Below, piece by piece: positions 1,533 through 44,674 of a stretch of 64,000 nt of DNA. The position numbers were made by a program, and so were the translations under genes. The notes beneath the pieces are model-generated. The model had not been told where the DNA came from and ran no database searches. It was given only the letters and a program-made list of their open reading frames with translations. The stretch covers positions 1 to 64,000 of the forward strand of contig JAUSLQ010000207.1 in assembly GCA_030645675.1 (NCBI GenBank), in the 5' to 3' direction. The DNA is from Actinomycetota bacterium (lineage in GTDB: Bacteria > Actinomycetota > Acidimicrobiia > Acidimicrobiales > Ilumatobacteraceae). Every line of letters begins with the position of its first letter. Position 1 is the stretch's first letter.

Positions 1533-2222
1533 GTTGTTGCTCCTTGTTTCGTTCGAATGGGTAGTGACGCCTGCGTCGAGTGCCGCGCGTGCGGCCTCGA
1601 CCCGGCTCCGGGCGTCGGCGGGGGTGAGCATCTCCATGACGCCCGCGAGGGGTCCGGTCATGCCTTGTAGCCAGCCGCCCGTCGCGAGGTCGCCGGTGTC
1701 GACCGCTTCGCCGCCGATGCTGGCGATGATGTCCGCGACCAACGACTTCGCCGTGGGATCGTCACCTGCGATGTAGACAGCGTTGTTGGCGCCGGCGTTC
1801 GCGCCGAGTGCGGGGGCCAGGATGAAGAGGGGCGTGCTGTTGAATGCCTTCACCACGCGAGCGCCGGGCACGTAGCTCGCAACCAGCACGCTCGACACGT
1901 TGTCGCCGATGTCGATGAGGCCGTCCGGCCCCGGCGCAGAACGGTTGTTCGTGCCGTCGACGACGACGACCCCGGACCAGTCGTCGACGACCGACACCGC
2001 CTCGGCGGTCTTCCCCCAGGGGGTCGCGAGGAACACGACATCAGCCCACGCGACAGCGTCCGTCACCTCCGCGGCATGGCCGTTCGGCCCGAGGGCCGCA
2101 ACCATTTCGTCGAGCGACTCGGGCCCCCGCGAGTTCGACAGCGTGACCTCGTGCCCCGCCTCCACGAACAACGCGCTGAGCGCCTGGCCCATGCGACCGG
2201 ATCCAATGATTGCAATATTCAT
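1116..2222 (-). CDS. NADPH:F420 oxidoreductase-like protein (NpdG type), reading through into SRPBCC domain
   Basis: The ATG at 2222 overlaps the stop of livF by 4 bases (ATGA). Residues 1-225 form a Rossmann domain with GSGRMG at 7-12 and 'LSNSRGPES', the pattern used for the NADP 2'-phosphate in F420-dependent NADP reductases; 'ATPWGKTAEA' and 'VKAFNSTPLFILA' are also typical. These enzymes move hydride between NADPH and coenzyme F420 or related substrates, and could feed a reductive or hydroxylating step here. The frame does not stop at the end of the domain: it continues through a short linker (about residues 216-230) into the SRPBCC domain, ending at 1116. An upstream extension of the open frame beyond 2222 covers livF in another frame and is not used. 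Confidence 0.75.
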   Translation of the reverse strand: MNIAIIGSGRMGQALSALFVEAGHEVTLSNSRGPESLDEMVAALGPNGHAAEVTDAVAWADVVFLATPWGKTAEAVSVVDDWSGVVVVDGTNNRSAPGPDGLIDIGDNVSSVLVASYVPGARVVKAFNSTPLFILAPALGANAGANNAVYIAGDDPTAKSLVADIIASIGGEAVDTGDLATGGWLQGMTGPLAGVMEMLTPADARSRVEAARAALDAGVTTHSNETRSNNMAKVALSKSIELNADAEEVWEFVSDFAGHASWQPHIQSIEMQSNGERKVNFTRGDSVFDRIAELDVAGKRLAYELVPGQATPLASLLAAFTVRAVDGHTEVEYAITVEVPDPMQDMARVGIGADIDGALAGLQERFSA

Positions 2223-2989
2223 TCCTGTGCTTCCTCTCCAATGAACGGCAACTTGCTTTCGTCCTCGAACTCGCTCGCCCACTCGGGACCACCGAGGTAG
2301 CTCGCTTGGACGAGGGTCATGTCGTTGCGCAGCACGTGCGCGTCGTAGCTGCTGGAACTGACTCCGCTCGCCATCAGGTAGGCGCGGTCCGCGATGCCGA
2401 GCGCAAGATGCACGTGCTGCTCGACCAGCAGGACCGCACACTTGTGCTCGGTCGCGTACGTGCGCACGACCGGCAGCAGACGCTCGACGACCAATGGCGC
2501 CAGACCCAGACTCAACTCGTCGAGTAACAGCACGCTGGGCTTGCGCGCAAGGGCCCGGGCCATCGCGAGCATCTGCTGCTCACCGCCCGACAAGACCCCG
2601 GCCATCCGTCCCGAGATCGCCCTGAGCGCCGGGAAGTACTCGTAGGCGGCGTCCGCATCGAGCTTCTCCTTCCGCGGTCCGAGTCGCAGGTGCTCAGCGA
2701 CAGTCATCCCGCGGAAGAGCCCTCGATCCTCGGGAACATGAGCGATTCCAGCGCGCGCGCGTGCGCTGGGAGACAGCGGTGCGAGGTCCGAACCGGCGAG
2801 GCGAACCTGCCCTTCTGTCATTCGGATCAATCCGGAGATCGCACGCAAAGTGGTGGACTTGCCGGCACCGTTCGGTCCCAGCATTGCCACGACCTCACCC
2901 GGCGCCACGTACAACGAGACCCCGTGCAAGACGGGACCGTTGTCGTACCCCGCAGCGAGCCCGTCGACGGAGAGCGCAGAGGTTGTCAA
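2219..2989 (-). CDS. livF: Branched-chain amino-acid-type ABC transporter ATP-binding protein LivF
   Basis: 256 residues with Walker A GPNGAGKST (38-46), signature LSGGEQQ (133-139) and Walker B VLLLDE (153-158), followed by 'LSLGLAPLVVERL', which is characteristic of LivF. It is the second ATPase of a Liv-type importer and acts on the cytoplasmic face of the membrane. The start is TTG, overlapping the livG stop as TTGA and preceded by AGGAGGT, which supports this choice. It sits between livG and the reductase gene in the operon. Liv-type importers in catabolic operons of actinobacteria often carry aromatic acids or other carboxylates rather than leucine; the substrate here is not evident from sequence. 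Confidence 0.93.
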   Translation of the reverse strand: MTTSALSVDGLAAGYDNGPVLHGVSLYVAPGEVVAMLGPNGAGKSTTLRAISGLIRMTEGQVRLAGSDLAPLSPSARARAGIAHVPEDRGLFRGMTVAEHLRLGPRKEKLDADAAYEYFPALRAISGRMAGVLSGGEQQMLAMARALARKPSVLLLDELSLGLAPLVVERLLPVVRTYATEHKCAVLLVEQHVHLALGIADRAYLMASGVSSSSYDAHVLRNDMTLVQASYLGGPEWASEFEDESKLPFIGEEAQE

Positions 2990-3762
2990 CTCGGACCTCC
3001 TGGATCGTTTGTTCGAAGAGCCGACGATCCGAGGTACGCCTCGATCACCCGTTCATTGGCGTAGATCTCGTGCGGCGGTCCCTCGGCGATGACCTCTCCG
3101 AACTCGACCACGACGACGTGATCACACGTGCCGAACACGAAGCCGATGTCGTGGTCGATGAGCAACATGGATGTTCCGCCGGACGTGAGCCCGCGCAACT
3201 GCAGTCCCAGCGCCCGCGTCTCCGACGTGTCGAGGCCAGCTGCCGGCTCGTCCAGGCATACGACGCGGGGGGACCCGGCAAACGCGCGCGCGATGCCGAC
3301 GAGCTTCCGTTGCCCTTCCGACAACTCGGTGGGCATCGCCTCGAAGAGGTGCCCGATCCCCACGGAGTCCAGCACACCGCCGACTCGCGCCTTGTCCAGC
3401 GTCGGCTTGATGAATAGTTCCTTGACGGTGGCCCAGGGCGACGGAGTTCCGATCGCGACAGCCACGTTCTCCGCCACACTGAGATCGTCGAACAGCTCAA
3501 CGGCCTGCCAAGTGCGGCCGAGGCCGCGCCGGACTCGGGCATGAGGCTTCAGCCGTGTCACGTCCTGGCCAGCGATCTCGACCCGTCCGTCGCACGCGAC
3601 GAAGCCTGCGATCGCGTCGACAAGCGTCGTCTTGCCAGCCCCGTTGGGTCCGATCAGTCCCACTATCTTGCCGTCAGGCACTTCAAGGCTCACGTTCGAC
3701 ACTGCCCGCAGGCCGCCGTATCGGACGGACACTCCACGGACTGCGAGGGCGGGGGCGGTCAT
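2986..3762 (-). CDS. livG: Branched-chain amino-acid-type ABC transporter ATP-binding protein LivG
   Basis: 258 residues. Walker A GPNGAGKTT is at 38-46, 'GLGRTWQAVELFDDLSVAENV' is a Q-loop typical of LivG, the signature is LSEGQRK near 155, and Walker B is VVCLDEP with D-loop AAGLD. It is the first ATPase of the importer. The ATG at 3762 overlaps the stop of the LivHM fusion by 4 bases and its own stop overlaps livF, so livHM-livG-livF are translated as one coupled unit. Confidence 0.93.
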   Translation of the reverse strand: MTAPALAVRGVSVRYGGLRAVSNVSLEVPDGKIVGLIGPNGAGKTTLVDAIAGFVACDGRVEIAGQDVTRLKPHARVRRGLGRTWQAVELFDDLSVAENVAVAIGTPSPWATVKELFIKPTLDKARVGGVLDSVGIGHLFEAMPTELSEGQRKLVGIARAFAGSPRVVCLDEPAAGLDTSETRALGLQLRGLTSGGTSMLLIDHDIGFVFGTCDHVVVVEFGEVIAEGPPHEIYANERVIEAYLGSSALRTNDPGGPS

Positions 3763-5753
3763 GCGGCGACCCCCTGCTGGTTCGCTGGCTGCACCGGGGG
3801 CGTGGCCGAGCCCCGGAGACGCTCAACTCGGCGCCGTTCGCGCTTGGTCGCCGAGGCAATGAGGATCCCGTCCGGGTAGAAGCGGAGTTGGAGAAGCAGC
3901 CCAGCTCCGATGAGGAGCTGCACGTACAGCCCCACTTGATTCTGGGGCAGCACCCATTTCTGCAGGATGAGCGGCACCACTGCACCCACCATGCCGAAGC
4001 CTCCGAGTACCGCGCCCTGCACGACCGTCACGCCCAGCACGTAGACGCTGGCGACGACGGAGAGCGCGGTCATCACGTCGAACATCGAAGTGGAGACCGT
4101 GCCGAAGTCGTACGCGAAGAGAACACCGGCGACACCTGCCAACGCGGACGAGATTGCAAAGGCGGCAACCTTCAGCGCCCGGACGTTGACCCCGGCCGCT
4201 GCCGCTGCGCGCTCGTTCGATCGAACCGCCAACATGCGCCGGCCAAGTTCGCCACGTCGCAGATTCGCGACAAAGGCATACAGGGCTGCAGTGACCACGA
4301 GTGCGCACAGGCCGAAGACCGGACTCGGCAGATCGCCTCCGAGGCCTCTGAAGCCGGCGTCCGTGCCCAGGCTGACTCCGAAGATGGAGGGCTGCTCGAC
4401 CGTGACAGCCGTCTGCCCGCCGCCCCAGTCGGGATTCGCGAAGACGAACTTCTCGACCGCCACGGCAGCGGCCAGAGTGACGACCACCAGCGTCACGCCG
4501 CGGACCCGCAAGGCCGAGACACCGACGACCACACCCACGATCAGCGCCATTACGACGGCGATCAGAGGTCCTAGCGGGAAACCAATGCCGTACCTCGAGC
4601 TCAACCGTGCGACACCGAAACCGGCGATTCCGGCCAGCGCCAGCTGCACGACCGACAATTGCCCGACGTACCCCATGATCACGATGAAGGAAAGACACAA
4701 GACGGTGCCGACCAGTCCGGTGACCACGGCCTGCCTGAACTCCGAGGGCAGCACGACGAGCGCGATGGCGCATGCGGCGACCATGGGGACCATTCGTCGT
4801 GCAAGTTGCTCCTGCTTGGGAACGCGAGGCAAGGACCGCTCGCGCAGGTCGCCTCGCTGCGGCAGGCTCGATCCTCGCCACCACAGCGCCACGACGATGA
4901 GGACGAACACGACGAGCGGTTGAACGCCGGACAACGCCACCCCGTTGCGGTTGGGAAACCACGGTTTCGTCGATGCATAGAAGATGAGGGACTCGCCGAC
5001 TCCGATGGCCAAGCCAGCGGCACACGCAATACCGAACGAAGTGAATCGCGCAAAGAGCGCTGCGGCCAGGGCTGGGACGATGAGGAGTGGAATCGTCGTC
5101 GCGCTGATGCCGACGATCGGGGCCGCGGCGATACCTACCATCCCCGCCCCAAGGTTCGCGAGGATCGAGTTCATCACCGAGATCGAGCTCGGCTCGAGCC
5201 CCGCGAGCACCGCCGCGACTTCGTTCTCTGACGATGCGCGTGTCGCCAATCCGAATCGCGTGAAGCGGTAGATCAGCCACAGCCCTGCGGCCAGCAGCGA
5301 GACCCCCGCCGCAAGGATCAGCTGAGCCACCGGCACGGGGACATCGCCGACCACGATGACATCGTCGGGCAAGACCGCTGGACTTGCCAACGGGGCGGTA
5401 CCGAAGATCACCTGGACCAGCGCCTGCGAGAGCAGCAGGACGCCAAGAGACGCCACGAGCTTGGCCAGCGGTGAGGCTGTTCGCAGTGGTCTCACGGCGA
5501 GCAGTTCGATCACCACTGCGTAGAGCACCATGAATGCAAGGGTCGCAATCACCGCTGGCCAAGTGTCGAGTGTGAAACGGAAGAACCCCGTGCGGAACGC
5601 CCAGAACATGTAGCCGGCCACCATGACCGACGCACCCGCGGCCAAGTTGAACGACCCGGTGCCGCGCCAGCTGAGCACGACGCCGATCGCCACTGCGGCG
5701 ATGACGGCGCCGGATCCCAGCCCGAGGAGGGCGAACACGAGGATGGTTTGCAA
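3759..5753 (-). CDS. livHM: LivH-LivM fused permease of a branched-chain-type ABC importer
   Basis: A 664-residue membrane protein that joins the two permeases normally encoded separately. The first half (about 1-290) has the LivH pattern, including 'WRGTGSFNLAAGA'; the second half (about 320-640) is LivM-like with 'GYVGQLSVVQLALAGIAGFG' and 'RRMLAVRSNERAAAAAGVN', the EAA-like loop that contacts the ATPase. I place the start at TTG 5753 because GGAGG stands 5 bases upstream; the open frame continues to 6128, but that part overlaps the monooxygenase gene and is not membrane-like. With livG, livF and the lipoprotein at 7062 it makes a complete importer. Fusion of LivH and LivM is known but is not the usual arrangement. 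Confidence 0.88.
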   Translation of the reverse strand: MQTILVFALLGLGSGAVIAAVAIGVVLSWRGTGSFNLAAGASVMVAGYMFWAFRTGFFRFTLDTWPAVIATLAFMVLYAVVIELLAVRPLRTASPLAKLVASLGVLLLSQALVQVIFGTAPLASPAVLPDDVIVVGDVPVPVAQLILAAGVSLLAAGLWLIYRFTRFGLATRASSENEVAAVLAGLEPSSISVMNSILANLGAGMVGIAAAPIVGISATTIPLLIVPALAAALFARFTSFGIACAAGLAIGVGESLIFYASTKPWFPNRNGVALSGVQPLVVFVLIVVALWWRGSSLPQRGDLRERSLPRVPKQEQLARRMVPMVAACAIALVVLPSEFRQAVVTGLVGTVLCLSFIVIMGYVGQLSVVQLALAGIAGFGVARLSSRYGIGFPLGPLIAVVMALIVGVVVGVSALRVRGVTLVVVTLAAAVAVEKFVFANPDWGGGQTAVTVEQPSIFGVSLGTDAGFRGLGGDLPSPVFGLCALVVTAALYAFVANLRRGELGRRMLAVRSNERAAAAAGVNVRALKVAAFAISSALAGVAGVLFAYDFGTVSTSMFDVMTALSVVASVYVLGVTVVQGAVLGGFGMVGAVVPLILQKWVLPQNQVGLYVQLLIGAGLLLQLRFYPDGILIASATKRERRRVERLRGSATPPVQPANQQGVAA

Positions 5754-5776: not shown

Positions 5777-7024
5777 CTAGATCAGTGAGCCGAACTCGAT
5801 GCCGAAGTGTTGCTTGGCGTAGGTCTGCGCGAACGACTCGTACTGCAGGCCGGCGTTCGTGCGGGCTGTCGAGAAGTCGCGCCAGTAGCGCTCCATACGA
5901 CTGCCCTGACGGCCGCTCTCGCTCGTTCCACCAGTACGGAACAGAATCTCGATCGCCTCCCACGCGAGGTTGATCGCGTGGTGGGTGCCGGCGTGGATCG
6001 TCATCAGTTGCTCGGTGTCGTAGCCGGCGCCGTCCTGCACGGACTCCGCGCACAGCTGCGAGTAGTACTCGCTCATGTGCAGGAGAATGGCCTCGGCAGC
6101 CACCAGCTTCCCGCTGGCGAGGCCCCAATGCCGCTGGAAATCCGGGTTCTGGTACCTCGGCACCGGGTTCGGGCCCATGGTCTTGCGCTCGCGGATGATC
6201 CGCTCGTACTCGTCGAGCGCCGCGTACGCAGTGCCGACGAGGATGGAGGTGATCTCCAGCTGGAGGTAGCCCATGGGGTGTCCGGCATACATCGGGTTGC
6301 CGTGCAGTTCGTAGCCGGGAGCGGCGAGGCCGTCACCGAAACCGACGAGGCTGCCGAAGACCATGGACTCGTCCGGGATGACCGCCCCGGTGACCTCGAT
6401 GCTGTTGGACCCGCTCCCGCGCATTCCGACGGCCCAGTCCTTCCAGTCGTCGAGCAGGGCCCAGTCGGCGCGAGGGACGAGGGCGACACCGATCCGTGCA
6501 CCGTTCGCCTCTTCAGGGTCGAGGCGGACCGCCAGCATCGCGTGGGTGGAGTACGGGGAGCCGGAGCAGTAGTCCCACTTGCCGTTGATGGCCCAGCCGC
6601 CTGGCGCACGAACTGCAGTCCCCATCGGGAGCGCCCGCAGCGGGGCCGCGAACTCCCCATCGGGGAGCAGCGCCGACAACTGAGCCGATTCGCCCCACAA
6701 GCCACCGAGCTGGAGGCCGTGCCCGGCCGCGAGGCAAAGGCACCAACCCGTTCCGGGACAGCCGCGAGCGATCTCCACGACCATCTTGACGAAGGTCGGG
6801 ACATCGAACTCGTACCCCCCGAATCGCTGGGGAAGGAGGGTCCGGTAGAAACCGGCCCCACGGAACAACTCGTGAGTCTCCGGCGAATAGGCGCCGCGCT
6901 GCTCCGTGGCGTCCTGTTCCGTCCGAAGATGATCACGGAGCGCTCGTGCCCGGCCGACGAGGGCCTCCGGGGTGAGCTCGGGTTCCGGAACCGGAATCGT
7001 GACGCGGGTTTGGGTGTCGCTCAT
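5777..7024 (-). CDS. Acyl-CoA-dehydrogenase-fold flavin monooxygenase (HsaA/HpaB-like)
   Basis: 415 residues without a CoA-pocket signature. The opening 'LVGRARALRDHLRTEQDATE', 'AYSPETHELFRGAGFYRTLL' and 'GCPGTGWCLCLAAGH' match group D two-component flavin monooxygenases and related dehydrogenases (HsaA, pigment-production hydroxylases). The C-terminal 'RTGGTSESGRQGSRMERYWRD' is the flavin- and tetramer-contact region of this fold. Such enzymes hydroxylate phenols using reduced flavin from a separate reductase; no obvious flavin reductase is in the operon, so one must come from elsewhere, or the protein has a different role. It lies between the lipoprotein and permease genes. Family confident, reaction inferred. 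Confidence 0.82.
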   Translation of the reverse strand: MSDTQTRVTIPVPEPELTPEALVGRARALRDHLRTEQDATEQRGAYSPETHELFRGAGFYRTLLPQRFGGYEFDVPTFVKMVVEIARGCPGTGWCLCLAAGHGLQLGGLWGESAQLSALLPDGEFAAPLRALPMGTAVRAPGGWAINGKWDYCSGSPYSTHAMLAVRLDPEEANGARIGVALVPRADWALLDDWKDWAVGMRGSGSNSIEVTGAVIPDESMVFGSLVGFGDGLAAPGYELHGNPMYAGHPMGYLQLEITSILVGTAYAALDEYERIIRERKTMGPNPVPRYQNPDFQRHWGLASGKLVAAEAILLHMSEYYSQLCAESVQDGAGYDTEQLMTIHAGTHHAINLAWEAIEILFRTGGTSESGRQGSRMERYWRDFSTARTNAGLQYESFAQTYAKQHFGIEFGSLI

Positions 7025-7061: not shown

Positions 7062-8471
7062 TCATTCCACGCCTGTCGGATCGAGCCAGTCGGTCACGGC
7101 GGTGAAGACGTTGCCACCGGTGTTCTCGAACACTCGGGTCTGGAAACCACACAGACCTGCCTGCGTGGGGTACGTGCCGCAAGCGACCACCGCGGGACCC
7201 AGCAGCATGGGGCCGGAGAACGCCACCGCCTCAGCAGCAATGGTCTCCTCGGTGGCGTCGGCGCCTCCAGCGGCATTCAGCAAGCGCGCCGCCGTCATCA
7301 CGAGACCCCAGGCGAGGGCAGCGTTCGAGTCGTTCTGCACGTCGGCCGAGAGACCGGCCTGGGCCGACTGCTCGATGTAGGCCTGCACGTCGGGCTGGGT
7401 CGAGTCGGCGACGTTCACCTGTGTGGACAACTGCATCCACTCGGGCGTCTCGCCGCCCAGTCCCTGGGCGACATCGGCAGTGAAGCAGAAGCTTCCCGTG
7501 GACACCACCGGGGCGGTGACATTGAGTGTCTTGAACGCGCTGGCGGCGGCAACGCATGCAGGCGGGAACGACACGAGCGGAACAATCGCGTCCGTATCGA
7601 GCACTCCAGCAGCGGTAGCGGCGGCCGTCAGGTTCGTCGTCGCCGGATCGAATCCGACACTCTTGACGGTGACGCCAGCCGCTTTGAGTGCACCCGTCAG
7701 CGTCTCGGCGCCACCAATGCTCTGTGCATCCTGCGGGTAGATCAACGAGACGGTCTTGGCCTCCAGAACGTCCACGAGGTACGTCGTGAGGCCGCCGAAG
7801 ATCGAGGACGGGTTGCCGTTGTAGATGTAGACGTTGTCGCCGGCAGCATCGGAAACGCTGATGGAGTTCGCCATCAGGATCGGCTTACTGCCCTGCATCA
7901 CCGCCTGCAGTGCAGCATCGCCGAAGATCGCAGTTCCGTAGAGGACGGTCTTCACCGCTTCGTCGTTCGAGAACTGGAGACCACAGGCGTTGCCGTCCTG
8001 CTCGCTCTGGACGACGAAGCAGGTGCTCAGCTGCAATGGGTGGCCATCGATACCGCCGAGCTCCGAGTTGATGTAGTTGACCGCAGCCTGCGCCCCCTGC
8101 GTGGCGGCCGGCCACGCCAGGCCGCCGCCCTCCTGGTTGAACCAGCCGATCTTGACGGGCTCGAGGCTGTCGTCTGCGGCTCCGGCCGTGCCGCCCGTGT
8201 ACGCAACGAGGTCAGTGACTGCCCCGGTCTCCGGCTCGGTGGTGGTCGGCGCGGCGCTCGTGTCCGGGCTCGAGTTCGCGCTCGTCGCCGGCGCTGAGCT
8301 CGAGTCGGGCGTGGAGTTCGTCTCGGGCGATGACGCCGCGGTGTCCGTCGACGATTCGTCGCCCGAACAGGCAGCGAGGACGAGGGCCGCCACGACGGCG
8401 ATCGCCGACGCCGCACGTCGACCTCGGCGGTTGGTTCGGGTCGAGCCCGGGACTTGGTTGTGTGCACTCAT
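7062..8471 (-). CDS. livK: ABC transporter substrate-binding lipoprotein (Peripla_BP_6/LivK type)
   Basis: 469 residues. A signal peptide ends in lipobox VLAAC with Cys35, followed by a Ser/Thr/Pro/Ala-rich linker to about residue 85. The mature domain begins 'EPVKIGWFNQEGG' and has the leucine-binding-protein pattern, including 'YINSELGGIDGHPLQLSTC' and 'KTVSLIYPQDAQSIGGAE'. It captures the substrate outside the membrane and delivers it to LivHM/LivG/LivF. AAAGGAG stands 7 bases before the ATG. It is separated by 127 bases from the next upstream gene, enough for a promoter of its own. Confidence 0.92.
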   Translation of the reverse strand: MSAHNQVPGSTRTNRRGRRAASAIAVVAALVLAACSGDESSTDTAASSPETNSTPDSSSAPATSANSSPDTSAAPTTTEPETGAVTDLVAYTGGTAGAADDSLEPVKIGWFNQEGGGLAWPAATQGAQAAVNYINSELGGIDGHPLQLSTCFVVQSEQDGNACGLQFSNDEAVKTVLYGTAIFGDAALQAVMQGSKPILMANSISVSDAAGDNVYIYNGNPSSIFGGLTTYLVDVLEAKTVSLIYPQDAQSIGGAETLTGALKAAGVTVKSVGFDPATTNLTAAATAAGVLDTDAIVPLVSFPPACVAAASAFKTLNVTAPVVSTGSFCFTADVAQGLGGETPEWMQLSTQVNVADSTQPDVQAYIEQSAQAGLSADVQNDSNAALAWGLVMTAARLLNAAGGADATEETIAAEAVAFSGPMLLGPAVVACGTYPTQAGLCGFQTRVFENTGGNVFTAVTDWLDPTGVE

Positions 8472-8598: not shown

Positions 8599-8880
8599 TC
8601 AGTGATTGCTCTGCTGTACCAGGTCTGCCTTGGCTTCTGTGCTGGCGAGGGCCACTTCGATCGCTCGAACCAGCTCACGGGCCGAGCTGGCACTCAGCTC
8701 GATGCCCACCCGTGCGCCCACACCCTGCGAGGGATTGATGAAGTCGAGCAGGAGCGCGTGGTCGTACGGGGCGCTCACCGGGTGGTCGTACATGACGTTC
8801 ACGGCGGTGACCCGCATCCAGTCGGCGACTCCACGAGCGGCCCCGCTCGCTTCCACTTGTTGGCTCAGCCATGTGCACAT
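8599..8880 (-). CDS. Small conserved protein of unknown function (possibly DUF6295)
   Basis: 93 residues beginning MCTW. The ATG overlaps the stop of the dienelactone hydrolase gene as TGATG, so it is translationally coupled. The core 'TAVNVMYDHPVSAPYDHALL' and 'VGARVGIELSASSARELVRA' suggests an alpha/beta fold; there is no signal peptide or membrane segment. The MCT start with this layout reminds me of DUF6295 proteins, which often accompany dienelactone-hydrolase-like genes, but this is recollection and not a search result. The histidines and Asp/Tyr pairs in the core could form a metal or ligand site. Function unknown; its position argues for a role with the hydrolase and the fused monooxygenase. 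Confidence 0.7.
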   Translation of the reverse strand: MCTWLSQQVEASGAARGVADWMRVTAVNVMYDHPVSAPYDHALLLDFINPSQGVGARVGIELSASSARELVRAIEVALASTEAKADLVQQSNH

Positions 8881-9638
8881 CAGTCGGCTCCTTTGAGCGT
8901 GCGGTCGAGAAACCTGAAGACCTGCTGCCACCCGTCGAGCGCCTGCTCGAGTCGATAGACGGGCTTGTCCGTGACGAAGAAGGCGTGCCCTGCCCCGTCG
9001 TAGCGGTGGAACGTGTGGTCCTTGCCGAGCTCGGTGAGGACACGATCGATCTCGTCCACCTCTGCCCGATCTGGGTTGGAGTCGTCGTTGCCGAAGATTC
9101 CGAGCAGCGGCATCGACATGTCGCCAGCCCGGTGGAGCACACCACGACTGGCCGGCCTGCCTTCGGACTCTGGCTGCGGCAGGATGCTGCCGCCCCAGCA
9201 GTCGACGGCCGCGTCGAGCTCCGGCACCTCGCACGCGGCGAGGAAGGTCTGGCGGCCACCGGAGCAGAAGCCGATGACACCGACCTTGCCGTTGGAACCG
9301 GGCTGCGCCCGGAGGTACGCGGCGGCACCTGCGATGTCGCCCATCACCTGGTCGTTGGGCATCGACTTGGCGAGGCCCTCCGCTCGGCCGGCCGCCGCCA
9401 CGTCGGCCCAGTTCCCGGGCCCGCGACGGTGGTACAGGTGGGGTGCAAGGCACGCATAGCCCTCGGTCGCGAAGCGACGCACGACCTCCTTGCACCACGG
9501 ATCCAGGCCCGGGGCATGGTGCACCAACACCATGCTGGGCACCGGTGTGTCGGAGATCGGGCGCGCCAAGTACCCCTCGATCACGTCGGAGCGATGCCCG
9601 GCGAAACCGACGAACTCGGCGATGAGCGCGTCCTTCAT
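8880..9638 (-). CDS. Dienelactone hydrolase family protein
   Basis: 252 residues of alpha/beta-hydrolase fold. The nucleophile elbow GFCSGG places Cys125 as nucleophile, which distinguishes dienelactone hydrolases from Ser hydrolases; Asp near 186 (FGNDDSNPD) and His218 (GAGHAF) complete the triad. Dienelactone hydrolases open lactones formed after catechol ring cleavage; related proteins act on other esters. Its ATG overlaps the stop of the FAD hydroxylase-VOC gene (TGATG) and its stop overlaps the small downstream gene, so the three form one coupled block. Confidence 0.88.
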   Translation of the reverse strand: MKDALIAEFVGFAGHRSDVIEGYLARPISDTPVPSMVLVHHAPGLDPWCKEVVRRFATEGYACLAPHLYHRRGPGNWADVAAAGRAEGLAKSMPNDQVMGDIAGAAAYLRAQPGSNGKVGVIGFCSGGRQTFLAACEVPELDAAVDCWGGSILPQPESEGRPASRGVLHRAGDMSMPLLGIFGNDDSNPDRAEVDEIDRVLTELGKDHTFHRYDGAGHAFFVTDKPVYRLEQALDGWQQVFRFLDRTLKGAD

Positions 9639-11797
9639 CAGCGACTGGCTCCGGCCGAGACGACCATGTCGCGAAGGATCTGATGGATCTCGCTCTCGGA
9701 CAGGCTGAGGTCGATCCGGTCGCTGTGGGGCTGCGGCCAGTCGATGCCCGTGTGCCAGTACACCTCGACGCGGTTGCCCTCGGGGTCGCGGAAGTAGCAG
9801 CCGATCGCGTTGCCGTGGTTGCTGACGTGATCGATCTCGTACTCGCGCTCGACGATGCGTGCGTAGAAGTCGCGCAACGCCGACAACGAGTCGACGACGA
9901 ACGACATCTGCTGCGGGTCGGTGTGCTTGCTCTCGTGGTACGCCAGCAGGAGCTCGTGATGCTCCGCATCCGGCTGGGCGCTGAGGAACACCTTCTTGTC
10001 GTCCCGGTCGGTGACGGTCAGGCCGAGGAAGTCGCTGTAGAACTCGCGCATCTTCTCGATGTCACGGACGTACAGCCCGATGTGGCCGAGCCGGCTCACC
10101 TTCGGCGCCGCAGCGGTGGAGCCGCCCCGGCTGCCGGCGGCTGCGGCCGGCTGCGAGAAGGAACCCCAGCCGACGATCACGCCCAGGACGGCGCCAGGGT
10201 CCGACGGGGCGACATCGCCGCGCCATGCGACGTGATGATCCGTGCGCACGATGACTGCGTTCGCCGTGTAGAGCTCGCGCAGCGCCTCACGATCGGCCTC
10301 GGCCGGCTCGAAGACCTCGAGCGGGATGCCGCGCTCCGCTGCTGCTGCCACGATGCCGGCGGTGTCGAACTCGCCGACGGTCAGCAGGGTGAACCCCAGG
10401 CCGAAGTGATCGAAGAGCGACGACCCGTCGGCGAGCCACATGTGCGGCGCACGGTTGCCCGGCGAAGCGGAGGGGATGTAATCCTCGAAGTTGGCAGCCG
10501 GCTCGTCGACACCGTCGCGCACGATCACCGGCGAGCTCGAGTAGCGGTAGCCGAGCTGACCGCCCATCCGCTTGAACTGGCGTGCCTTCTGGATGTTGAT
10601 GTCTGCGGCGACCTGCGCTCGCACGGCGTCGCCGGCCGGGCCGGCCTCTTCGATACCGGAACGCACCAGCTCCCGGGAGCCGACGGCCTGGTTGGCCTCG
10701 CATCCGGCGAGGATGAACCGCGCCGCTTCGCCGCGCTCGATGCCATAACTGGGCAACAGCATCGGGCCACCCCAGCCTTCGACGACGGCAGCAATCTTCC
10801 AGCCGAGGTCGGCGGCGTCGCCGATGCCGATGTTCATGCCGAAACCGCCCATCGGCGACACGAGGTGAGCCGCGTCGCCGATGAGGTAGGCCCGGCCGAA
10901 GTCGTAGCGCGGCACCTGCAGCGTGTTGGTGATGAAGGTCCCGCCACCGAGGGGTTCGGCTTCGAACTCCTCGCCGACAGCACGGAAGAGCATCGCCTTG
11001 CACTGCTCCCAATCGTCGCCATCGACGTGCTCGGGGACCGGCGAGCTGAAGTAGGCCCACTCGTCCACACCGGACTGCGGCACCATGCTGTCGCCGTTGC
11101 GGTCCTCGTTGTAGAAGAGGAGCATCGAGGCCATCGGGGTGGCCTTCCAGAATTCGGAGAGCCGCGGTGCCCGGAAGTGCCACAGGAAGCTCCGGGCGAT
11201 ACCGGGGTGGCCCTCCATGCGGACGTTGAGCACGTTGCTGCGCAGATGGCTCCGGCCACCGTCGGCGAGCACGATGTAGTCAGCGCGGGCCGACTTGGGT
11301 CCGACCGGCGTCGTGATGGTGAGATCCACGCCCCAGTCGTCCTGCGTGAAGGTGTCGACGGAATGGTCGAAGCACACCCGGATCAGTTCCGGAAAGGTGG
11401 CCATGCGCTCCCTGAGGGTGCGCTCGATCGCACCATGCGGTGCCCATTCCGCGACCTCGGAGGCGATCGGCTGCCGCTCGTCCCACTCGTAGGCACGAGG
11501 AAAGCGCTCGACCTGGAAGCCGTTGAGCCGTGTCACGAATGCGACATCTCGGAGCACCTCGTTGCTGACCGGATCGTTCTCCCGGAGCGCGTCGGCGATT
11601 CCCCAGCGACGGAAGTGCTCCATCGACCGCACATTCGTCAGGTTGGCGCGAGCCGGATACACCTGCGACTCGGACCGGAGTTCGAACAGCATGCTGCGCA
11701 CGCCGCGCAGCGCCAGGTCGATGGCGAGGGCCATCCCCACCGGGCCCGCGCCGACGATGGCGACCGGGGCTTCGTAGTCAACGACGACTTGGGACAC
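9638..11797 (-). CDS. FAD-dependent aromatic hydroxylase fused to a C-terminal VOC domain
   Basis: 719 residues. The N-terminal 540 residues are a class A flavoprotein monooxygenase: GAGPVG at 16-21, a 'VLADGGRSHLR' motif, and 'GDAAHLVSPMGGFGMNIGIG' near 300 for FAD ribityl binding. After an Ala/Gly linker (about 545-560) comes a full VOC domain with 'GHIGLYVRDIEKMREFYSDF' and 'YFRDPEGNRVEVYW', as in catechol-2,3-dioxygenase-like proteins. The position of the second metal ligand reads QQMSF rather than the usual HxAF, so ring-cleavage activity is uncertain. The start is GTG at 11797 with GAGGAG 5 bases upstream; the open frame runs on to 11965 without protein-like content. It is the first gene after the operon promoter. 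Confidence 0.85.
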   Translation of the reverse strand: MSQVVVDYEAPVAIVGAGPVGMALAIDLALRGVRSMLFELRSESQVYPARANLTNVRSMEHFRRWGIADALRENDPVSNEVLRDVAFVTRLNGFQVERFPRAYEWDERQPIASEVAEWAPHGAIERTLRERMATFPELIRVCFDHSVDTFTQDDWGVDLTITTPVGPKSARADYIVLADGGRSHLRSNVLNVRMEGHPGIARSFLWHFRAPRLSEFWKATPMASMLLFYNEDRNGDSMVPQSGVDEWAYFSSPVPEHVDGDDWEQCKAMLFRAVGEEFEAEPLGGGTFITNTLQVPRYDFGRAYLIGDAAHLVSPMGGFGMNIGIGDAADLGWKIAAVVEGWGGPMLLPSYGIERGEAARFILAGCEANQAVGSRELVRSGIEEAGPAGDAVRAQVAADINIQKARQFKRMGGQLGYRYSSSPVIVRDGVDEPAANFEDYIPSASPGNRAPHMWLADGSSLFDHFGLGFTLLTVGEFDTAGIVAAAAERGIPLEVFEPAEADREALRELYTANAVIVRTDHHVAWRGDVAPSDPGAVLGVIVGWGSFSQPAAAAGSRGGSTAAAPKVSRLGHIGLYVRDIEKMREFYSDFLGLTVTDRDDKKVFLSAQPDAEHHELLLAYHESKHTDPQQMSFVVDSLSALRDFYARIVEREYEIDHVSNHGNAIGCYFRDPEGNRVEVYWHTGIDWPQPHSDRIDLSLSESEIHQILRDMVVSAGASR

Positions 11798-11827
11798 AAC
11801 ATCTCCTCGTGGCCTGAAACGGACGGG

Positions 11828-12104: not shown

Positions 12105-15100
12105 TCAGCCGTCCTCGCCGAGGACCACGCGGACACGGTGCGTGCGCCCGTCGTCGGCGAGGGGGATCGCCGCTTTGCCGTTCCACAGCACCTCGTTCGC
12201 CAGCACCTCGTCGTCGAGCTCGACCGACACCACCCCGCGGCTCAGGCCACGCGGGTTCTCCACGACGATCTGGTAGCGGGACGAGTGGTAGCGGAAGCTG
12301 ATCTCGAAGCCCGGCCAGGCACGCGGGATGCACGGGTCGATCACGAGCGTCGTGCCGCGAAGCCGGAAGCCCAGGATCGACTCGACGCCGGCCTGGTACA
12401 TCCAGCCCGCCGATCCGGTGTACCAGGTCCACCCGCCGCGGCCCACGTGGGGCGGTTCGGTGTAGACGTCGGCGGCCATCACGTAGGGCTCCACCTTGTA
12501 CCGCAACACGCCGGCCCGGGTGCTGGCGTGGTTGATCGGATTGAGCAACGAGAACAGCTCGCCGGCCCTGTCGCCGTCGCCGAGGGCGGCGAAGGCGAGC
12601 ACAGACCAGATGGCACCGTGCGTGTACTGCCCACCGTTCTCGCGGATGCCCGGCACGTAGCCCTTGATGTAGCCGGGGTCGACGTCGGACCGGTCGAACG
12701 GCGGGGTGAACAGCAGAACCAGACCGTCGCCGCGTCGGATGAGGTACTCGTCCACCGCTGCCATCGCCTGCGCCGCCCGAGCCGGATGGGCGACGCCGGA
12801 CAGGACGCTCCACGACTGGGCGATCGAGTCGATCCTGCATTCGGCGTTCGCGGCCGAGCCGAGCGGGGTGCCGTCGTCGAAGAAGGCACGCCGGTACCAG
12901 TCGCCGTCCCAACCCTCTCGCTCGACCGCCTGCTGCAGCTTCACGATGTGGGCCTTCCAGCGTTCCGCGCGAGTTCTATCGCCGCGCGCCTCTGCGAGCG
13001 GGATGAACGAGCCGAGCGCGCTGGACAGGAACCACGCCAGCCAGACGCTCTCGCCGCGACCCTCGTGACCAACCCGGTTCATGCCGTCGTTCCAGTCGCC
13101 CGACCCGATGAGCGGCAGGCCGTGCTCGCCGACGGCGAGGCTTCGGTCGAGGGCCGCGGCGCAGTGGTCGAACAGTGAGGCCGATCGGTTGGACCGCTTC
13201 GGCTGGAAGTAGTTCTCCATCTGGCCGGGCAGCAGGTTCACCCCGTCGAGGAACGGCACTTGCTCGTCGAGCACAGCCGTGTCGCCGGTGACCTCGAGGT
13301 AACGATCGACCGTGTACGGCAGCCAGAGGAGATCGTCGGAGATCCTGGTCCGCACCCCGCGACCCGTCGGCGGATGCCACCAGTGCTGCACGTCTCCCTC
13401 GACGAACTGACGCGACGCAGCCCGCAGCAGGTGCTCGCGCGCGAGATCGCGCTTCGAGGGGAGCAGGGCGATCACGTCCTGGAGTTGGTCGCGGAACCCA
13501 TAGGCACCACCTGCTTGGTAGAACGCCGACCTCGCCCACATCCTGCACGCGAGCGTCTGGTAGGTGAGCCAGCGGTTGAGCATGATGTCCATCGAGCGAT
13601 CCGGGGTGTGCACCTGGATCGTTCCCTGCGCGTCGTCCCAGAAGGTCGTCACGTCGCGGAGCATCGATTCGTGGTCGGCCAGCCGAGCGCCGTGAATCAG
13701 GTCCACCGCCGCGGCGGCATCGCCGGCCTCGCCGAGCAGCACGACCACTTGCGTCCGTGCCCCGCTCGCGAGCTCGAAACTGGTCTGCAGCGTGCCGCAC
13801 GGGTCCAGGCCTGCGCCGACCGCGCCCTGGAGCCGGTGGCCGCGATCGAGCCCTGCGGGCCGATCGGGCGCGCCGTTCCGGCCGAGGAACTCGGTCCGAT
13901 CGGCGGTCGCTGCGGTCTGCCGCCCGCCGAGATCGAGGAAGCAGACGCGCCCGGCGAACTCGTTGTTCCACGGGTTGCGTGCCAGGAGCGCCCCCGTCTC
14001 GGGTTCGAGTGCGGTGATGATGCGCGCGGCGTTCACCCCGCGCGAGGTGCCCAGCACCCACTCGACGTACGCGGTCACCGACAGACGCCGAGTCTGTCCT
14101 GATCGGTTCTCGATGGTCAGCACCGAAACCTTCACGGCCCGGTCGAGGGGTACGAACTGCAGCAGATCGAGCTGAATGTCGGCGTGAAGGTGCTCGAAGC
14201 GGCTGTACCCGGCTCCGTGACGGGCGACGTACGTCGAGTCGTTGCACCGGATCGGCTGGGTGGTCGGCCCCCACACCTCGCCGGTGTCGTCGTCGCGCAG
14301 GTAGATGGCCTCGCTCACGGGGTCGCTGACAGGGTCGTTGGACCACCCGGTCAGCTGGTTCTCGCGGCTGTTCCCCGACCACGTGTACCCCGAGCCGGAC
14401 TCGGACACCTGGAACCCGAACGACTCGTTGGCGATCACGTTCAACCACGGCGCAGGAGTGGACTGTCCCGGGCCGAGGATCGTGACGTACTCACGGCCGT
14501 CGGCGGTGAAGCCACCGAGACCGTTGAAGAACTCCAACTCCGGTCGTCGAACGATCGGCTCGCCTGCCGACTTCCTCGAGCGGACCGCCGACGGTGGCCG
14601 CGCAATGCGGTCGGGCCGTTCGAGCCGCGTCACCTGGTCGGCGAGACTGCCTCGACGGCTGAGAAGCACCGCACGGGACGCACTTTGGAGGAGCACACGA
14701 TCCTCGCTCGACAGCCGGTCGCCACGCAGGATGTACACCCCTCCGCGACCTGCATGGACATCGTGCTGGAGGACCGACTGGCTCGTACGCACCAGGGCTT
14801 CGAGCGAGTCGTGCAAGTTCTGGGAGTAGGTCGCGCCGTGCTCGTTGAGAATCACGAGGTCGACGTCGAGGAGCTTCAGCCGCCAGTACTCGTGTGCATG
14901 CAGCAACTGGCGGACGATGCCGAGATCCTCTGCTTCGTCGATGCGAACCAGCACGATCGGGAGGTCGCCGGAGATGCCGTAGGCCCACAGCGCCGGGGCT
15001 CCCCGATCGTTGCGGACCAGCAGGCTCTCCGCCGGGCGCAGCGAAGGGTCCGAGTAGAGGACCCGGTTGGCGAGGCGCTGGAAGAGGTGCGCCTCGTCGG

Positions 15101-18100
15101 ACTGGATCCTCAGGTGGTGCAGCTGCACCTGCGCGTGGGTCCACGCCAGCACTGCAGCTCGTTCGAAGGTGGCCGACTCGCGGTACTTGTCGGCCAGGTC
15201 GAGCACCTCCTCGCGCGACCCGGCGACCACCGTGGAGAAGACCGCGTGCGCCGTCGCCCCAGGGGCCAGCGTCACGCGGCAACGGAGGCTGAAGATCGGG
15301 TCCAGTACCGAGCCGACCGTGTTCGACAGCGGGTGCCCGTCGATCACCGAGACGGGCGAGCGGACCGACCGGCCGCGCCCGAGGAACCGCGAGCGATCCG
15401 TCTCGTACTGCACGACCCCACCCGGTTGATCCTCGAGCGCCACCACGTGGGCGGCCCAGATCGGTGCTTCGCCCCGCGACCGCGGTCGCCGGGTGGCGAG
15501 GAGGGCACCGATCTCGGGAACGAACTCGGTCTGCACGAACAGGTTCTGGAATGCGGGGTGCGCCATGTCCGCGGCCTGCGGCGCGAGGGCGATCTCGGCA
15601 TACGACGTGAGCTCGATCTTGCGTTCGTGCGTGCCGAGGTTGGTCAGCGTCACGCGGCGGATCTCCGCGTCGTGCTCGGCCGACACCACGACGGTGAGCC
15701 CCGTGGAGATCGACCCGTCGCGCCGGGAGAACTCGGCGCGATCCTCGGAGTAGGTGACCTCGTAGCTGTCGGCTTCGGCACCGGTCGGCTGATGCCCGGC
15801 CGACCAGACCGTGCCAGTGTCCATGTCGCGCAGGAAGAGGTAGTTGCCCCAGTTGTCCTGGGTGACGTCCTCACGCCAGCGCGTCACCGCGATGTCGCCC
15901 CACCGGCTGTAGCCAGATCCCGCGGTGGTGACCATGACGGCATAGCGGCCGTTCGAAAGCACGTGCGTTCGAGGGATCGCGTCGTGAGGCGATGTGAAGT
16001 GACGCAGGACCGGCGGCACCAGATCACGGGCGTCGGCAGCGCTCTTCACCTCCTCGGCTCGTGGCCGGGCCACGAGCACATCACGCGGCATCCGCTCCTG
16101 CAACAGCAGCTCGGCCGCCTCGACGATGGGGTCGGCGTGGAAGCGCTCCACCATCACCCTGTCGTTGAGGACGTTGCCGATGGCCACCAGCGCCATTCCC
16201 TGGTGATGGGCCATGTAGCTGTTGACGATCGCGACCGACGCCCCTTCCGGGAGCCGGCGCTCGGTGTAGTCGAGCGCCTCGCGGAAGCCGTACCGCCCGG
16301 CGGCACCGGCCGCCCCGAGGCGGACGAGGTTCTTCACCGCGGCCTTCGGTTCGATCATCGCGGCGAGCGCCGTCGCGTAGGGGGCGATGACGACGTCCTC
16401 GCTCAGCCCGCGCTTCAGGCCGAGGCCGGGAACGCCGAAACCCGAGTACTGGTACGTGTTCTCGAGGTCACGCGCGTTGAACCCCGACTCGGAGATCCCC
16501 CATGGCACACCGATCTCGGCGGCGTAGCGGATCTGACGTGCGACCACCAGCCGGTTCGTCTGGTCGAGGAGGCTGTTGGCCGGCGAGCGCATCACCAGCG
16601 CCGGCATGAGGTACTCGAACATCGATCCGGACCAGGAGATGAGGGCCGAGCCGCGACCGACGGGTGTCAGCGCCCGACCGAGCCGGAACCAGTGGTCCGG
16701 CTCGACGTCACCCTTGGCGATCGCGAGGAAGCTGGTGAGGCGGGCCTCGGAGGCGAGCAGGTCGTAGTAGCTCGGGTCCAACGAACCATCACGGACTCTG
16801 AACCCGATCGAGAACAGCATGCGCGTCGGATCGAACAAGAACGAGAAGTCCATCTCGTCGAAGAACTGCTGGGCTCGATCGGCAATCACCCCGAGGCGCC
16901 GGACGAGCCCCGCAGCCGCACGCGCGCCGTCGTCCACGGTGCCGTCGGATGGATCAGACAGTTGTGCGATCGTCGGGAAGGCGCCGAGCTGTGCGGACGG
17001 ACTGAACAACGTCGTGTCGCGGGCGTGGCTGGCGGCGGTGCGTCGTGCCGCCTCGGCCCATGTCACGAGTTCGCTCTCGGCTCCCCCGCCTCGTTCAGCG
17101 TTGAGCGCCACGGCGACATCAGACAGTGTGTCGGTGTACGCGACGAGCCTTGCCAGCTGGGAGGCCCAGTCCCCCAGGGTGAAGGGAGACGTGACCCCGA
17201 CTCCTTCGGGCAGCACCAGCGCTTCGTCGAGGTGCCGCCGAGTGAGAGTGGAGCTGCGCCCGTCGCCGATCGCAGAGGCAGCAACGCGGGTCAAGGTGAG
17301 CGCATCGCCGACGCCGGCGAGCGCGGCTGCCGCAGGCAGGGGTTGGTCGATCATCTGCCGGCAGGCGTTCGACAAGGCCAGCAGGTGTCCGGCGAGATTG
17401 CCGCTGTCGACGGACGACACGTAGTCCGGCTCCAGCCGGCGAAGGTCTCTGGTGTCGTACCAGTTGTACAAGTGCCCGCGGAACCGATCGAGCTCGCCGA
17501 GCGTGGCGAGCGTCTGTTCCAGGCGTTCCACCATCTCGAGCGTCCCGATCCAGCCGAAGTCGCGGGCCGTCACCGTCGACAGCAGGTACATCCCGATGTT
17601 CGTCGGCGAGGTGCGATGGGCGATGAGCGGATCTGGATCGTCCTGGAAGTTGTCGGGCGGCAGCCCATGATCCTCTGGCCCCACGAAGGTCTCGAAGAAC
17701 AGCCAGGTGCGGCGAGCGGTGATGCGCAACGCCTCGACCTCGGCATCCGACAGCAGTTCCGACGCCGATTCGGGAGGGGGCAGGCTGATCCAGAGCGCGA
17801 CCAGCGGTGAGAACGACCACAGGACGACGAAGGGCGCGGCGATCCACACGGCATCGGGCTTCACGGCCAGGACCAGACCGAACGTTCCCGCCCCGATCAT
17901 GACGGCACCGGCCATCTGCCGGGCGAACCCCACAGCGCTGAGGTGGCGGCTGGCCTGGGCGTGCGCTGCGGTGGTCCACTCGAGGAGGTTCCGCCGCGTG
18001 ACGAGCAGCCGGATCAGCGTCCGCAAGATCGCGTCGATCATCATCCACGCCTGGTATGCGAGGAACGTGATGCCCAGTCCGATGTGGGCGGCTGCGGCGA

Positions 18101-29415: not shown

Positions 29416-30170
29416 TGTCTCCCCTGTTGGTCTGAGTCTGCGGTCGCAGACACACTTGTGCGCGTCGGGTCACCGGTCGAGGTGGTGGCGCCGAATGCGA
29501 GGTACAGCTCGGCGAGCGCCGTCGGGTTCGACCGCAGCTCGTCGGCGGAGCCGGAGAGCACGACGCGTCCGCGTACGAGGACCGAGACCCGGTCGACGAC
29601 GGACAACGCCTTGTCAACGTGCTGCTCCACGAGCAGCACGGCCACGCCCCTGTCAGCCGCGGCACGGACAGCGACCAGCAGCCGGTCGACGACGAGTGGT
29701 GCGAGCCCCAACGACAGCTCGTCGGCCAGCAGCACACGCGGACGGCGGGCGAGAGCGCGGGCGAGGGTGAGCATCTGCTGCTGGCCGCCCGACAGCAGGC
29801 CCGCTCGGCGCGCGAGGTGCGGGCCGAGCTCCGGAAAGAGCTCCAGCACGTCCCCGATCGACGCGCCGCCAGCCCGCAGGTTGTCCTTCACGGTCTGGCC
29901 CATGAACACGGATCGCTCCTCCGTGATGAGTGCCATGCCCTGACGGGCGCGACGGTGGAGGGGTGCCGTGGTCTCGCGGCCTGCCACCCGCACCGCGCCG
30001 CGGATCGCGCGCAGCTCACCTGCGAGAGTCAGCAGTGTCGTCGTCTTCCCTGCACCGTTCGGGCCGAGCAGCAGGTGCACCTCGCCGGGTTCGACGGCAA
30101 GGTGCAGGTCACGGACGATCGGCACGCCGGCATACCCGGCATCGACGCCGACGGCTTCGAGGGCGGTCAC
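29412..30170 (-). CDS. livF: ABC transporter ATP-binding protein LivF
   Basis: 252 residues with Walker A GPNGAGKTT near 38-46, signature LSGGQQQ, Walker B VLLADE and 'LSLGLAPLVVDRL', typical of LivF. It is the second ATPase of the importer, partnering the LivG-like domain fused to the permeases. Its start overlaps the stop of the 914-aa fusion by 4 bases and its stop overlaps the lipoprotein gene. Confidence 0.92.
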   Translation of the reverse strand: MTALEAVGVDAGYAGVPIVRDLHLAVEPGEVHLLLGPNGAGKTTTLLTLAGELRAIRGAVRVAGRETTAPLHRRARQGMALITEERSVFMGQTVKDNLRAGGASIGDVLELFPELGPHLARRAGLLSGGQQQMLTLARALARRPRVLLADELSLGLAPLVVDRLLVAVRAAADRGVAVLLVEQHVDKALSVVDRVSVLVRGRVVLSGSADELRSNPTALAELYLAFGATTSTGDPTRTSVSATADSDQQGRQ

Positions 30171-36107: not shown

Positions 36108-36944
36108 TCAGGCCCCGACGAGGCGCGTCGTCATCGAGCCGATGCCATCGATGCTGGTGACGATCTCGTCGCCGGGCTGCAGGTATTCGGGCGGATCCTG
36201 GATCATCCCCACACCACTGCTCGTGCCCGTGAAGATGATGTCCCCCGGCAGCAGGGTCACGATCTTGGACAGCTCGACGATGATGTTCGGCACGCTGAAG
36301 ATCAGCCGGTCGGTCGTGAAGTCCTGACGGGTGCGGCCGTTGATGACGCAACGCACGTGCATGGTGTCGGGGTCCGCGAACTCGTCCGTGGTGACGAGGA
36401 CCGGGCCCGTCGGCCCGAAGCCTGGCAGCGACTTGGCCAGGCTGAACTGCGGCCGGTCGTAGTTCAGCTGCAGCACCCTGTCGGAGAGGTCCTGCCCGAT
36501 CGTGAAGCCGGCGATGGCGTCCCACGCGTGTTCGGGTGGGATCAGATGGCCACCGGTGCCGACGACGATGACCAGCTCCGCCTCCCAGTCGATCGACGCC
36601 GACGGGAGGACGACCACGGTGTTCGGTCCCGTGATGCACGTCGGGAACTTCGTGAACACGACCGGCGTGGTGGGGCGCGTTGCGCGCGCTTCCTCCACAT
36701 GGTCCAGGTAGTTCGCCCCGACACCGAACACCTGGCGCGGCTCGGGTGAGGGCGCGCCGAGCGTTGCCGGATCGACGGTGAGCGGTGTGCCCGTCGCCGA
36801 CGGAACCCAGTCCCGGAACGCCGACCACTGGTCGTAGACGGAGCGCATCGACGGCCCGAACCGCCCTTCACTGGCCATCTCGACGTCGATGACACCGTCG
36901 TCGGTGGCGACAGCGGCACGTCCGTGCACATTGGCGAGCTTCAT
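36108..36944 (-). CDS. Fumarylacetoacetate hydrolase (FAH) family protein
   Basis: 278 residues. The N-terminal 'KLANVHGRAAVATDDGVIDV' and 'VFGVGANYLDHVEEA' lead into the FAH core with the metal-binding Glu in DWEAELVIVVG and 'GFTIGQDLSDR', 'GDIIFTGTSSGVG'. Family members cleave C-C bonds of fumarylacetoacetate, acylpyruvates or hydrate 2-hydroxy-dienoates with Mg2+. GGGGGA stands 5 bases before the ATG. It is the first gene of a leftward operon with the acetoacetyl-CoA synthetase, and divergent from the dioxygenase operon. Confidence 0.88.
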   Translation of the reverse strand: MKLANVHGRAAVATDDGVIDVEMASEGRFGPSMRSVYDQWSAFRDWVPSATGTPLTVDPATLGAPSPEPRQVFGVGANYLDHVEEARATRPTTPVVFTKFPTCITGPNTVVVLPSASIDWEAELVIVVGTGGHLIPPEHAWDAIAGFTIGQDLSDRVLQLNYDRPQFSLAKSLPGFGPTGPVLVTTDEFADPDTMHVRCVINGRTRQDFTTDRLIFSVPNIIVELSKIVTLLPGDIIFTGTSSGVGMIQDPPEYLQPGDEIVTSIDGIGSMTTRLVGA

Positions 36945-36986
36945 GGAATCCCCCGATCCTCGGCCATGGCGCTCGCGATTCGAGCC

Positions 36987-37053
36987 CCATGGTGAATGCC
37001 TCGGTCAATGTACGACCGCCCATCGCCAGATTCAAGGAGAAATTCACCATTGG
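36987..37053. promoter_or_regulatory. Inverted operator-like pair flanking divergent promoters
   Basis: CCATGGTGAAT at 36987-36997 and its near-perfect inverse ATTCACCATTGG at 37042-37053, with centres about 55 bases apart. One copy lies just downstream of the leftward start, the other just upstream of the rightward -35, so a dimeric regulator bound at both could control both operons. The nearby IclR protein is the leading candidate. Confidence 0.55.
37007..37035 (-). promoter_or_regulatory. Leftward promoter of the FAH-acetoacetyl-CoA synthetase operon
   Basis: Minus-strand TTGAAT (37035-37030), 17 bases, TACATT (37012-37007): four to five matches to each consensus box. The leader is about 55 bases. 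Confidence 0.6.
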
Positions 37054-37056
37054 CAC

Positions 37057-37085
37057 TTGATTCGCCCAATGCAGAATCGTAGGGT
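37057..37085 (+). promoter_or_regulatory. Rightward promoter of the extradiol/Rieske operon
   Basis: TTGATT (37057-37062), 17 bases, TAGGGT (37080-37085), a common actinobacterial -10 form. The ATG of the first gene is at 37119, preceded by GAGGGGG. Confidence 0.6.
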
Positions 37086-37118
37086 CTGCGTCTGGGGTAC
37101 ACCGAGGGGGTCCTGCCC

Positions 37119-40586: not shown

Positions 40587-40590
40587 CGCC

Positions 40591-41397: not shown

Positions 41398-41411
41398 CCA
41401 TTCCAGGCTGA

Positions 41412-42362: not shown

Positions 42363-42366
42363 CGGC

Positions 42367-43385: not shown

Positions 43386-43410
43386 GTTCGGATCGGATCC
43401 TTTCGGTCGG

Positions 43411-44661: not shown

Positions 44662-44674
44662 AGGTCCCCCGGGG

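Follow-up and report, generated by a model that had tools for sequence, protein, structure and literature searches.

The closest described counterparts of the locus analysed here are two pairs of catabolic proteins, IfcA and IfcB of the isoflavone cluster of Variovorax V35 and FdeE and FdeC of naringenin catabolism in Herbaspirillum, in each of which a group A monooxygenase and then a putative glyoxalase (VOC) protein act on the same ring (PMC11069340). IfcA makes 8-hydroxydaidzein, which accumulates in an ifcB mutant; IfcB is a putative glyoxalase resembling FdeC, to which dioxygenation of the naringenin A-ring is ascribed (PMC11069340). The activity of IfcB in vitro was weak, with 8-hydroxydaidzein remaining (PMC11069340). 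Clusters of the IfcA/IfcB and FdeE/FdeC type also contain an alpha/beta hydrolase gene (PMC11069340), and the operon described below likewise has a hydrolase-family gene.

The locus lies in a stretch of 64,000 nucleotides of an uncultured actinobacterium, referred to here as the window. As in the described clusters, the VOC module adjoins a group A flavin monooxygenase among genes of aromatic catabolism. However, IfcA/IfcB and FdeE/FdeC are encoded by separate genes, whereas the two parts are fused here, and the likeness is drawn from gene context and description. Unlike in the isoflavone cluster, no IfcD-like cupin gene was seen in the fusion operon. A further counterpart is a hydroxylase-VOC-dienelactone hydrolase operon of Streptomyces (L039-L043). 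Its genes are orthologues arranged alike, 57-74% identical and with the same Gln in the metal site, except that the hydroxylase and VOC genes are not joined.

A fused hydroxylase and VOC domain within an operon

The fusion gene is a single open reading frame of 719 amino acids on the minus strand, with a GTG start at 11795-11797 and the stop at 9638-9640. The features of the gene and its operon are as follows.

11803..11808, minus strand: Shine-Dalgarno-like GAGGAG, 5 nt upstream of the GTG (from sequence)
9638..11797, minus strand: fusion gene, group A FAD aromatic hydroxylase plus VOC domain (open reading frame, Pfam, second in-frame copy)
10718..11770, minus strand: FAD_binding_3, residues 10-360, with GxGxxG, DG and GD motifs (Pfam, E 5e-57)
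10205..10465, minus strand: Rng_hyd_C, aromatic-ring hydroxylase C-terminal domain, residues 445-531 (Pfam, E 2e-9)
10100..10174, minus strand: linker, residues 542-566 (comparison with Streptomyces and the second genome)
9761..10093, minus strand: VOC (Glyoxalase/dioxygenase), residues 569-679 (Pfam PF00903, E 3e-16)
8880..9638, minus strand: dienelactone-hydrolase-family gene with a Cys-type GFCSGG nucleophile; third gene in Streptomyces, 71-74% identical (Pfam, synteny)
7062..8471, minus strand: Peripla_BP_6 substrate-binding protein of a Liv-type ABC transporter; Streptomyces 57-66% (Pfam, synteny)
5777..7024, minus strand: acyl-CoA-dehydrogenase-fold (HsaA-like) flavin monooxygenase; Streptomyces 67-68% (family match, synteny)
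3759..5564, minus strand: Liv-type ABC permease, one frame with two BPD_transp_2 matches; Streptomyces 70-71% (Pfam, synteny)
2219..3762, minus strand: two ABC transporter ATPase genes, 2986-3762 and 2219-2989, the end of the transport block (family match)

The original prediction of a class A hydroxylase running on into a complete VOC module was borne out, both parts having Pfam matches in one frame. The match to FAD_binding_3 scores 194 bits against a Pfam cut-off of 22, the hydroxylase half belongs to NCBIfam PRK06126 (469.4 bits, cut-off 445), and its FAD motifs are intact (GAGPVG at 16, LADGGRS at 177 and GDAAHLVSPMGG at 307). Its best solved relative, aligned over the full length, is RebC (E 1e-66); the likeness to RebC and to the PRK06126 group A hydroxylases covers this half of the fusion only. 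From these family assignments the N-terminal half is a group A FAD-dependent aromatic hydroxylase, with ring hydroxylation as its predicted activity. The VOC domain is complete, spanning positions 1-121 of the 121 of the PF00903 model. It is one domain of about 150 amino acids, not the two-domain arrangement of type I extradiol enzymes. A PHROGs search gave no informative match.

The dienelactone-hydrolase-family gene is translationally coupled to the fusion, its ATG overlapping the TGA of the fusion gene (ATGA). In Streptomyces the order hydroxylase, VOC, dienelactone hydrolase, binding protein, flavin monooxygenase, permease is retained. This order and the identities given above indicate that the locus is one conserved uptake-and-degradation operon, two of whose genes have been joined.

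Further features were seen in the window, the first three of them on the minus strand. Just upstream of the operon, a frame of 2892 amino acids (12105-20783) resembles, by reading alone, a cyclic beta-glucan synthase/glycoside phosphorylase. At 1116-2441, F420/NADP oxidoreductase and polyketide cyclase/START-like domains share one frame, possibly another fusion, and a 914-amino-acid frame at 30167-32911 is a multi-part transporter fusion, in which Liv-type permease domains are joined to an ABC ATPase domain. A second aromatic-degradation cluster (36108-46321) contains Rieske and ring-hydroxylating beta subunit genes, a SnoaL-like gene, two FAH-family genes and two VOC genes with the ordinary metal-site His; an AMP-binding gene lies just outside it at 34127-36106.

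Origin of the join

We searched 61 relatives, 395 genomes of the class and 299 Streptomyces-family genomes for further fusions, loci being fetched for the best matches only. Among the 61 relatives, the same in-frame fusion was found in one other genome (G005:C31), at 88% identity; in all loci fetched, both domains in one frame were not found beyond these two genomes. The search for related loci also returned PMCN01000232.1, from an Acidimicrobiaceae metagenome assembly, which appears to be the same contig as G005:C31. In DNA, the hydroxylase parts of the two fused genes are 83.5% identical and the VOC parts 87.1%; the differences fall chiefly at third codon positions in both domains. The linker stretch comprises 39 codons in one copy and 40 in the other, a difference of exactly one codon (3 nt). 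The second copy belongs to a different species of the same genus, and the carriers of the fusion are two related uncultured soil actinobacteria.

In five Streptomyces species the hydroxylase and VOC orthologues are separate adjacent genes, at 69-70% and 70-72% identity, respectively. At their junction the TGA of the hydroxylase is followed by a short spacer of tens of nucleotides with an AAGGA(G) site and then by the ATG of the VOC gene, which begins ATG CCC AAG GTC at the exact place where the fusion reads A-PKV. Separate orthologues with a stop, a spacer and a ribosome site at the junction are what might be expected if the fusion were an artefact, a stop codon having been lost in a draft metagenome assembly, and the original prediction had named separate orthologues together with such an error as grounds for abandoning the fusion. 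The Streptomyces genes are indeed separate, yet the same join is found without interruption in a different species, whose hydroxylase part is 83.5% identical in DNA and whose linker differs by one codon. Because the in-frame fusion recurs in a second genome of the genus, we rejected a sequencing error as its origin, and an artefact appears exceedingly improbable. With the operon order shared with Streptomyces and the two genes separate there, the comparison therefore shows a lineage-specific gene fusion in which two neighbouring operon genes were joined.

The metal site and the Gln-type clade

The feature considered to define extradiol ring cleavage is the 2-His-1-carboxylate triad. In catechol 2,3-dioxygenase, His153, His214 and Glu265 hold the iron, and the other residues compared here form the conserved active site (PMC4664950). 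We mapped the site of the fusion by aligning 17 VOC relatives, as a profile, with this enzyme (1mpy), which placed the residues as follows.

10082..10084, minus strand: His572, at the position of Fe ligand His153 (alignment to 1mpy)
9956..9958, minus strand: His614, at the position of active-site His199 (alignment to 1mpy)
9908..9910, minus strand: Gln630, the second Q of QQMSF, at the position of Fe ligand His214 (alignment to 1mpy)
9815..9817, minus strand: His661, in the HGN motif, at the position of second-sphere His246 (alignment to 1mpy)
9794..9796, minus strand: Tyr668, at the position of Tyr255 (alignment to 1mpy)
9764..9766, minus strand: Glu678, at the position of Fe ligand Glu265 (alignment to 1mpy)

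Two residues of the 2-His-1-Glu iron triad, His572 and Glu678, are kept, and the second His is replaced by Gln630; the second-sphere set is retained, with His614, His661 and Tyr668 for His199, His246 and Tyr255. The original prediction of a replaced second His thus stands as far as QQMSF is present and Gln occupies the His214 position, but the replacement is not peculiar to the fusion, being found throughout a clade. Its suggestion that the His of the HGN motif serves as an alternative ligand did not hold, and we rejected this residue as a special replacement, because it aligns with the second-sphere His246 and occurs in His-type relatives too.

In glyoxalase I and methylmalonyl-CoA epimerase, Gln is known to serve as a metal ligand. 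These VOC enzymes carry a fourth ligand position on the beta-4 strand, and for this reason His614, on beta-4, would be a better candidate than the HGN His for a compensating ligand, should one exist. At the beta-5 metal position, where His is expected in glyoxalase I and methylmalonyl-CoA epimerase, the fusion has Gln630. Next to His614, Glu615 (9953-9955 in the window) gives the subclade of the fusion (18 rows) the motif HHE, versus HHQ in most other Gln-type VOC proteins, so that close to the metal site there is a second change, specific to this subclade.

The VOC half has the paired beta-alpha-beta-beta-beta fold of type I extradiol enzymes according to Pfam, AlphaFold and Foldseek. The AlphaFold model of the VOC domain, made from an eight-sequence alignment, has a pLDDT of 75 and positions the active-site residues within the expected strands or at their ends; that of the full-length fusion, from a shallow alignment, has a pLDDT of 42, too low for use. 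Foldseek matched the VOC model to extradiol dioxygenases at a probability of 1.00, with low overall TM-scores. Some of the similarity lies in the N-terminal, non-catalytic half of extradiol enzymes; L061 and L065, both of the Gln clade, have their match in the catalytic half of HpaD. With type I extradiol dioxygenases such as 1mpy and homoprotocatechuate 2,3-dioxygenase, the fusion shares the VOC fold and equivalents of His153, His199, His246, Tyr255 and Glu265; it differs from them in the Gln for His214, in having one VOC domain instead of two and in the attached hydroxylase. Small one-domain type I extradiol dioxygenases exist.

Gln and the other five active-site positions are invariant in 51 sequences from Actinomycetota and Proteobacteria. 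A sister group (L012-L014, L049, L051), likewise found beside FAD hydroxylases, keeps the usual His. In an unrooted VOC tree built without the His/Gln column, one branch with support 98/89 parts the 51 Gln from 14 His sequences, and the fusion lies deep within the Gln group, next to Streptomyces. Since the His/Gln split maps to this single branch, Gln at the second-His position marks a widespread clade of mostly standalone VOC proteins and not the fusion as such. Considering the wider family, the change would have been from His to Gln. A structure search found no close solved structure from the Gln clade, PDB 9u42 (182 amino acids) being of the His type. In the literature searched, which covered few subscription journals and is therefore weak evidence on this point, we found no report of a Gln-ligand extradiol enzyme.

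Two further arrangements of VOC genes were seen. The genome of the window itself contains an unfused VOC-FAD hydroxylase pair (G000:C72:22253-24840; L002, L003, L060), the VOC protein of which is of the Gln type (GQVSF). The other is on a Caballeronia plasmid, where a gene composed of two VOC-like halves (L153:2966-3709) ends abruptly beside an IS3 transposase, a few genes away from a Gln-type VOC gene.

Function of the VOC half

Gene neighbourhoods of clade members bear on the reaction. In each of the nine annotated plasmid loci with a Gln-type VOC, a gene of the FAH family or for a hydratase (FAH, HpaH, MhpD) is no more than about 5 kb away; a class A hydroxylase is also nearby in five of the nine. 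In Streptomyces NBC_00564, the Gln-type VOC gene is followed by genes for an alpha/beta hydrolase, an HpaH hydratase, an aldolase and an aldehyde dehydrogenase; within 40 kb no further ring-cleaving enzyme is annotated. Given the gene contexts of the clade and the IfcA/IfcB precedent, hydroxylation followed by ring fission is the best reading, held with only moderate certainty, in part because of the weak in vitro activity of IfcB. The original prediction that consecutive hydroxylation and ring cleavage are the logic of the fusion is likewise supported.

We therefore propose, at a probability of roughly 0.6, that the fusion is a bifunctional hydroxylase and ring-fission enzyme with a His-Gln-Glu metal site that performs two steps of aromatic degradation. 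Its N-terminal half would hydroxylate a phenolic ring adjacent to an existing hydroxyl, and the VOC half would bind the dihydroxy product at a metal coordinated by His572, Glu678 and Gln630 and open the ring with O2, His614, His661 and Tyr668 having the roles of their counterparts in catechol 2,3-dioxygenase. The ring-fission product would be taken onward by the coupled dienelactone-hydrolase-family enzyme, the ABC transporter of the operon would bring the compound in, and the second flavin monooxygenase may serve elsewhere in the pathway. In this scheme we infer the ring cleavage by the VOC half, the role of Gln as a metal ligand, the channelling and the order of the pathway; substrate channelling between the halves is plausible. 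The intact motifs of both halves, the five retained catalytic positions, the invariance of the site across the clade and the conserved operon order speak for the proposal. Counting against it are the incomplete 2-His-1-carboxylate triad, the partial likeness to the non-catalytic half of extradiol enzymes, the low overall TM-scores and the weak activity of IfcB.

The fold is common to extradiol dioxygenases and isomerase-type VOC enzymes, and the VOC half might instead be an isomerase, a cyclase or a hydrolase-like enzyme that depends on a metal and takes the hydroxylated product or its quinone form as substrate. His614 would then be a true ligand, and the set His, His, Gln, Glu would contain, in another order, the residues of the His, Gln, His, Glu set of methylmalonyl-CoA epimerase; the placement of His572, His614, Gln630 and Glu678 on beta-1, 4, 5 and 8 agrees with this, as does the metal-binding role of Gln in glyoxalase I and the epimerase. 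However, the extradiol acid-base pair His661 and Tyr668 is invariant, clade members are found in meta-cleavage-type gene sets, and extradiol dioxygenases are the best matches in both sequence and fold, so that such an activity seems rather unlikely.

The loss of one canonical ligand, in a module joined to the enzyme that makes the product, could also be taken to mean that the VOC half is non-catalytic and binds, protects or chaperones an unstable hydroxylated product. A mere binding module had been considered in the original prediction, but six catalytic-type positions, including the Gln, are kept over the 51 sequences, which binding would not need, and the clade occurs in ring-cleavage operons. 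Moreover, the VOC domains of the two fused copies are 90.8% identical, under a constraint equal to that on the hydroxylase. We consider a purely non-catalytic role improbable, more so than an isomerase-type activity, and retain the two-step hydroxylation and ring fission as the preferred interpretation.

It is tempting to extend this interpretation to a natural clade of ring-cleaving VOC oxygenases with a His-Gln-Glu site in place of the triad considered necessary for extradiol chemistry, one lineage of which was fused to its hydroxylase so that an unstable dihydroxy product is passed on directly; we put this forward tentatively, as somewhat short of an even chance. The clade with the invariant Gln, of which at least 51 sequences were sampled, would offer natural enzymes for probing the role of the second His ligand. 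The fusion ties an uncharacterised VOC protein to one specific hydroxylase, whose product should therefore be the VOC substrate. The fused pair and the Streptomyces operon, which is present in cultured strains, make the question of function directly testable.
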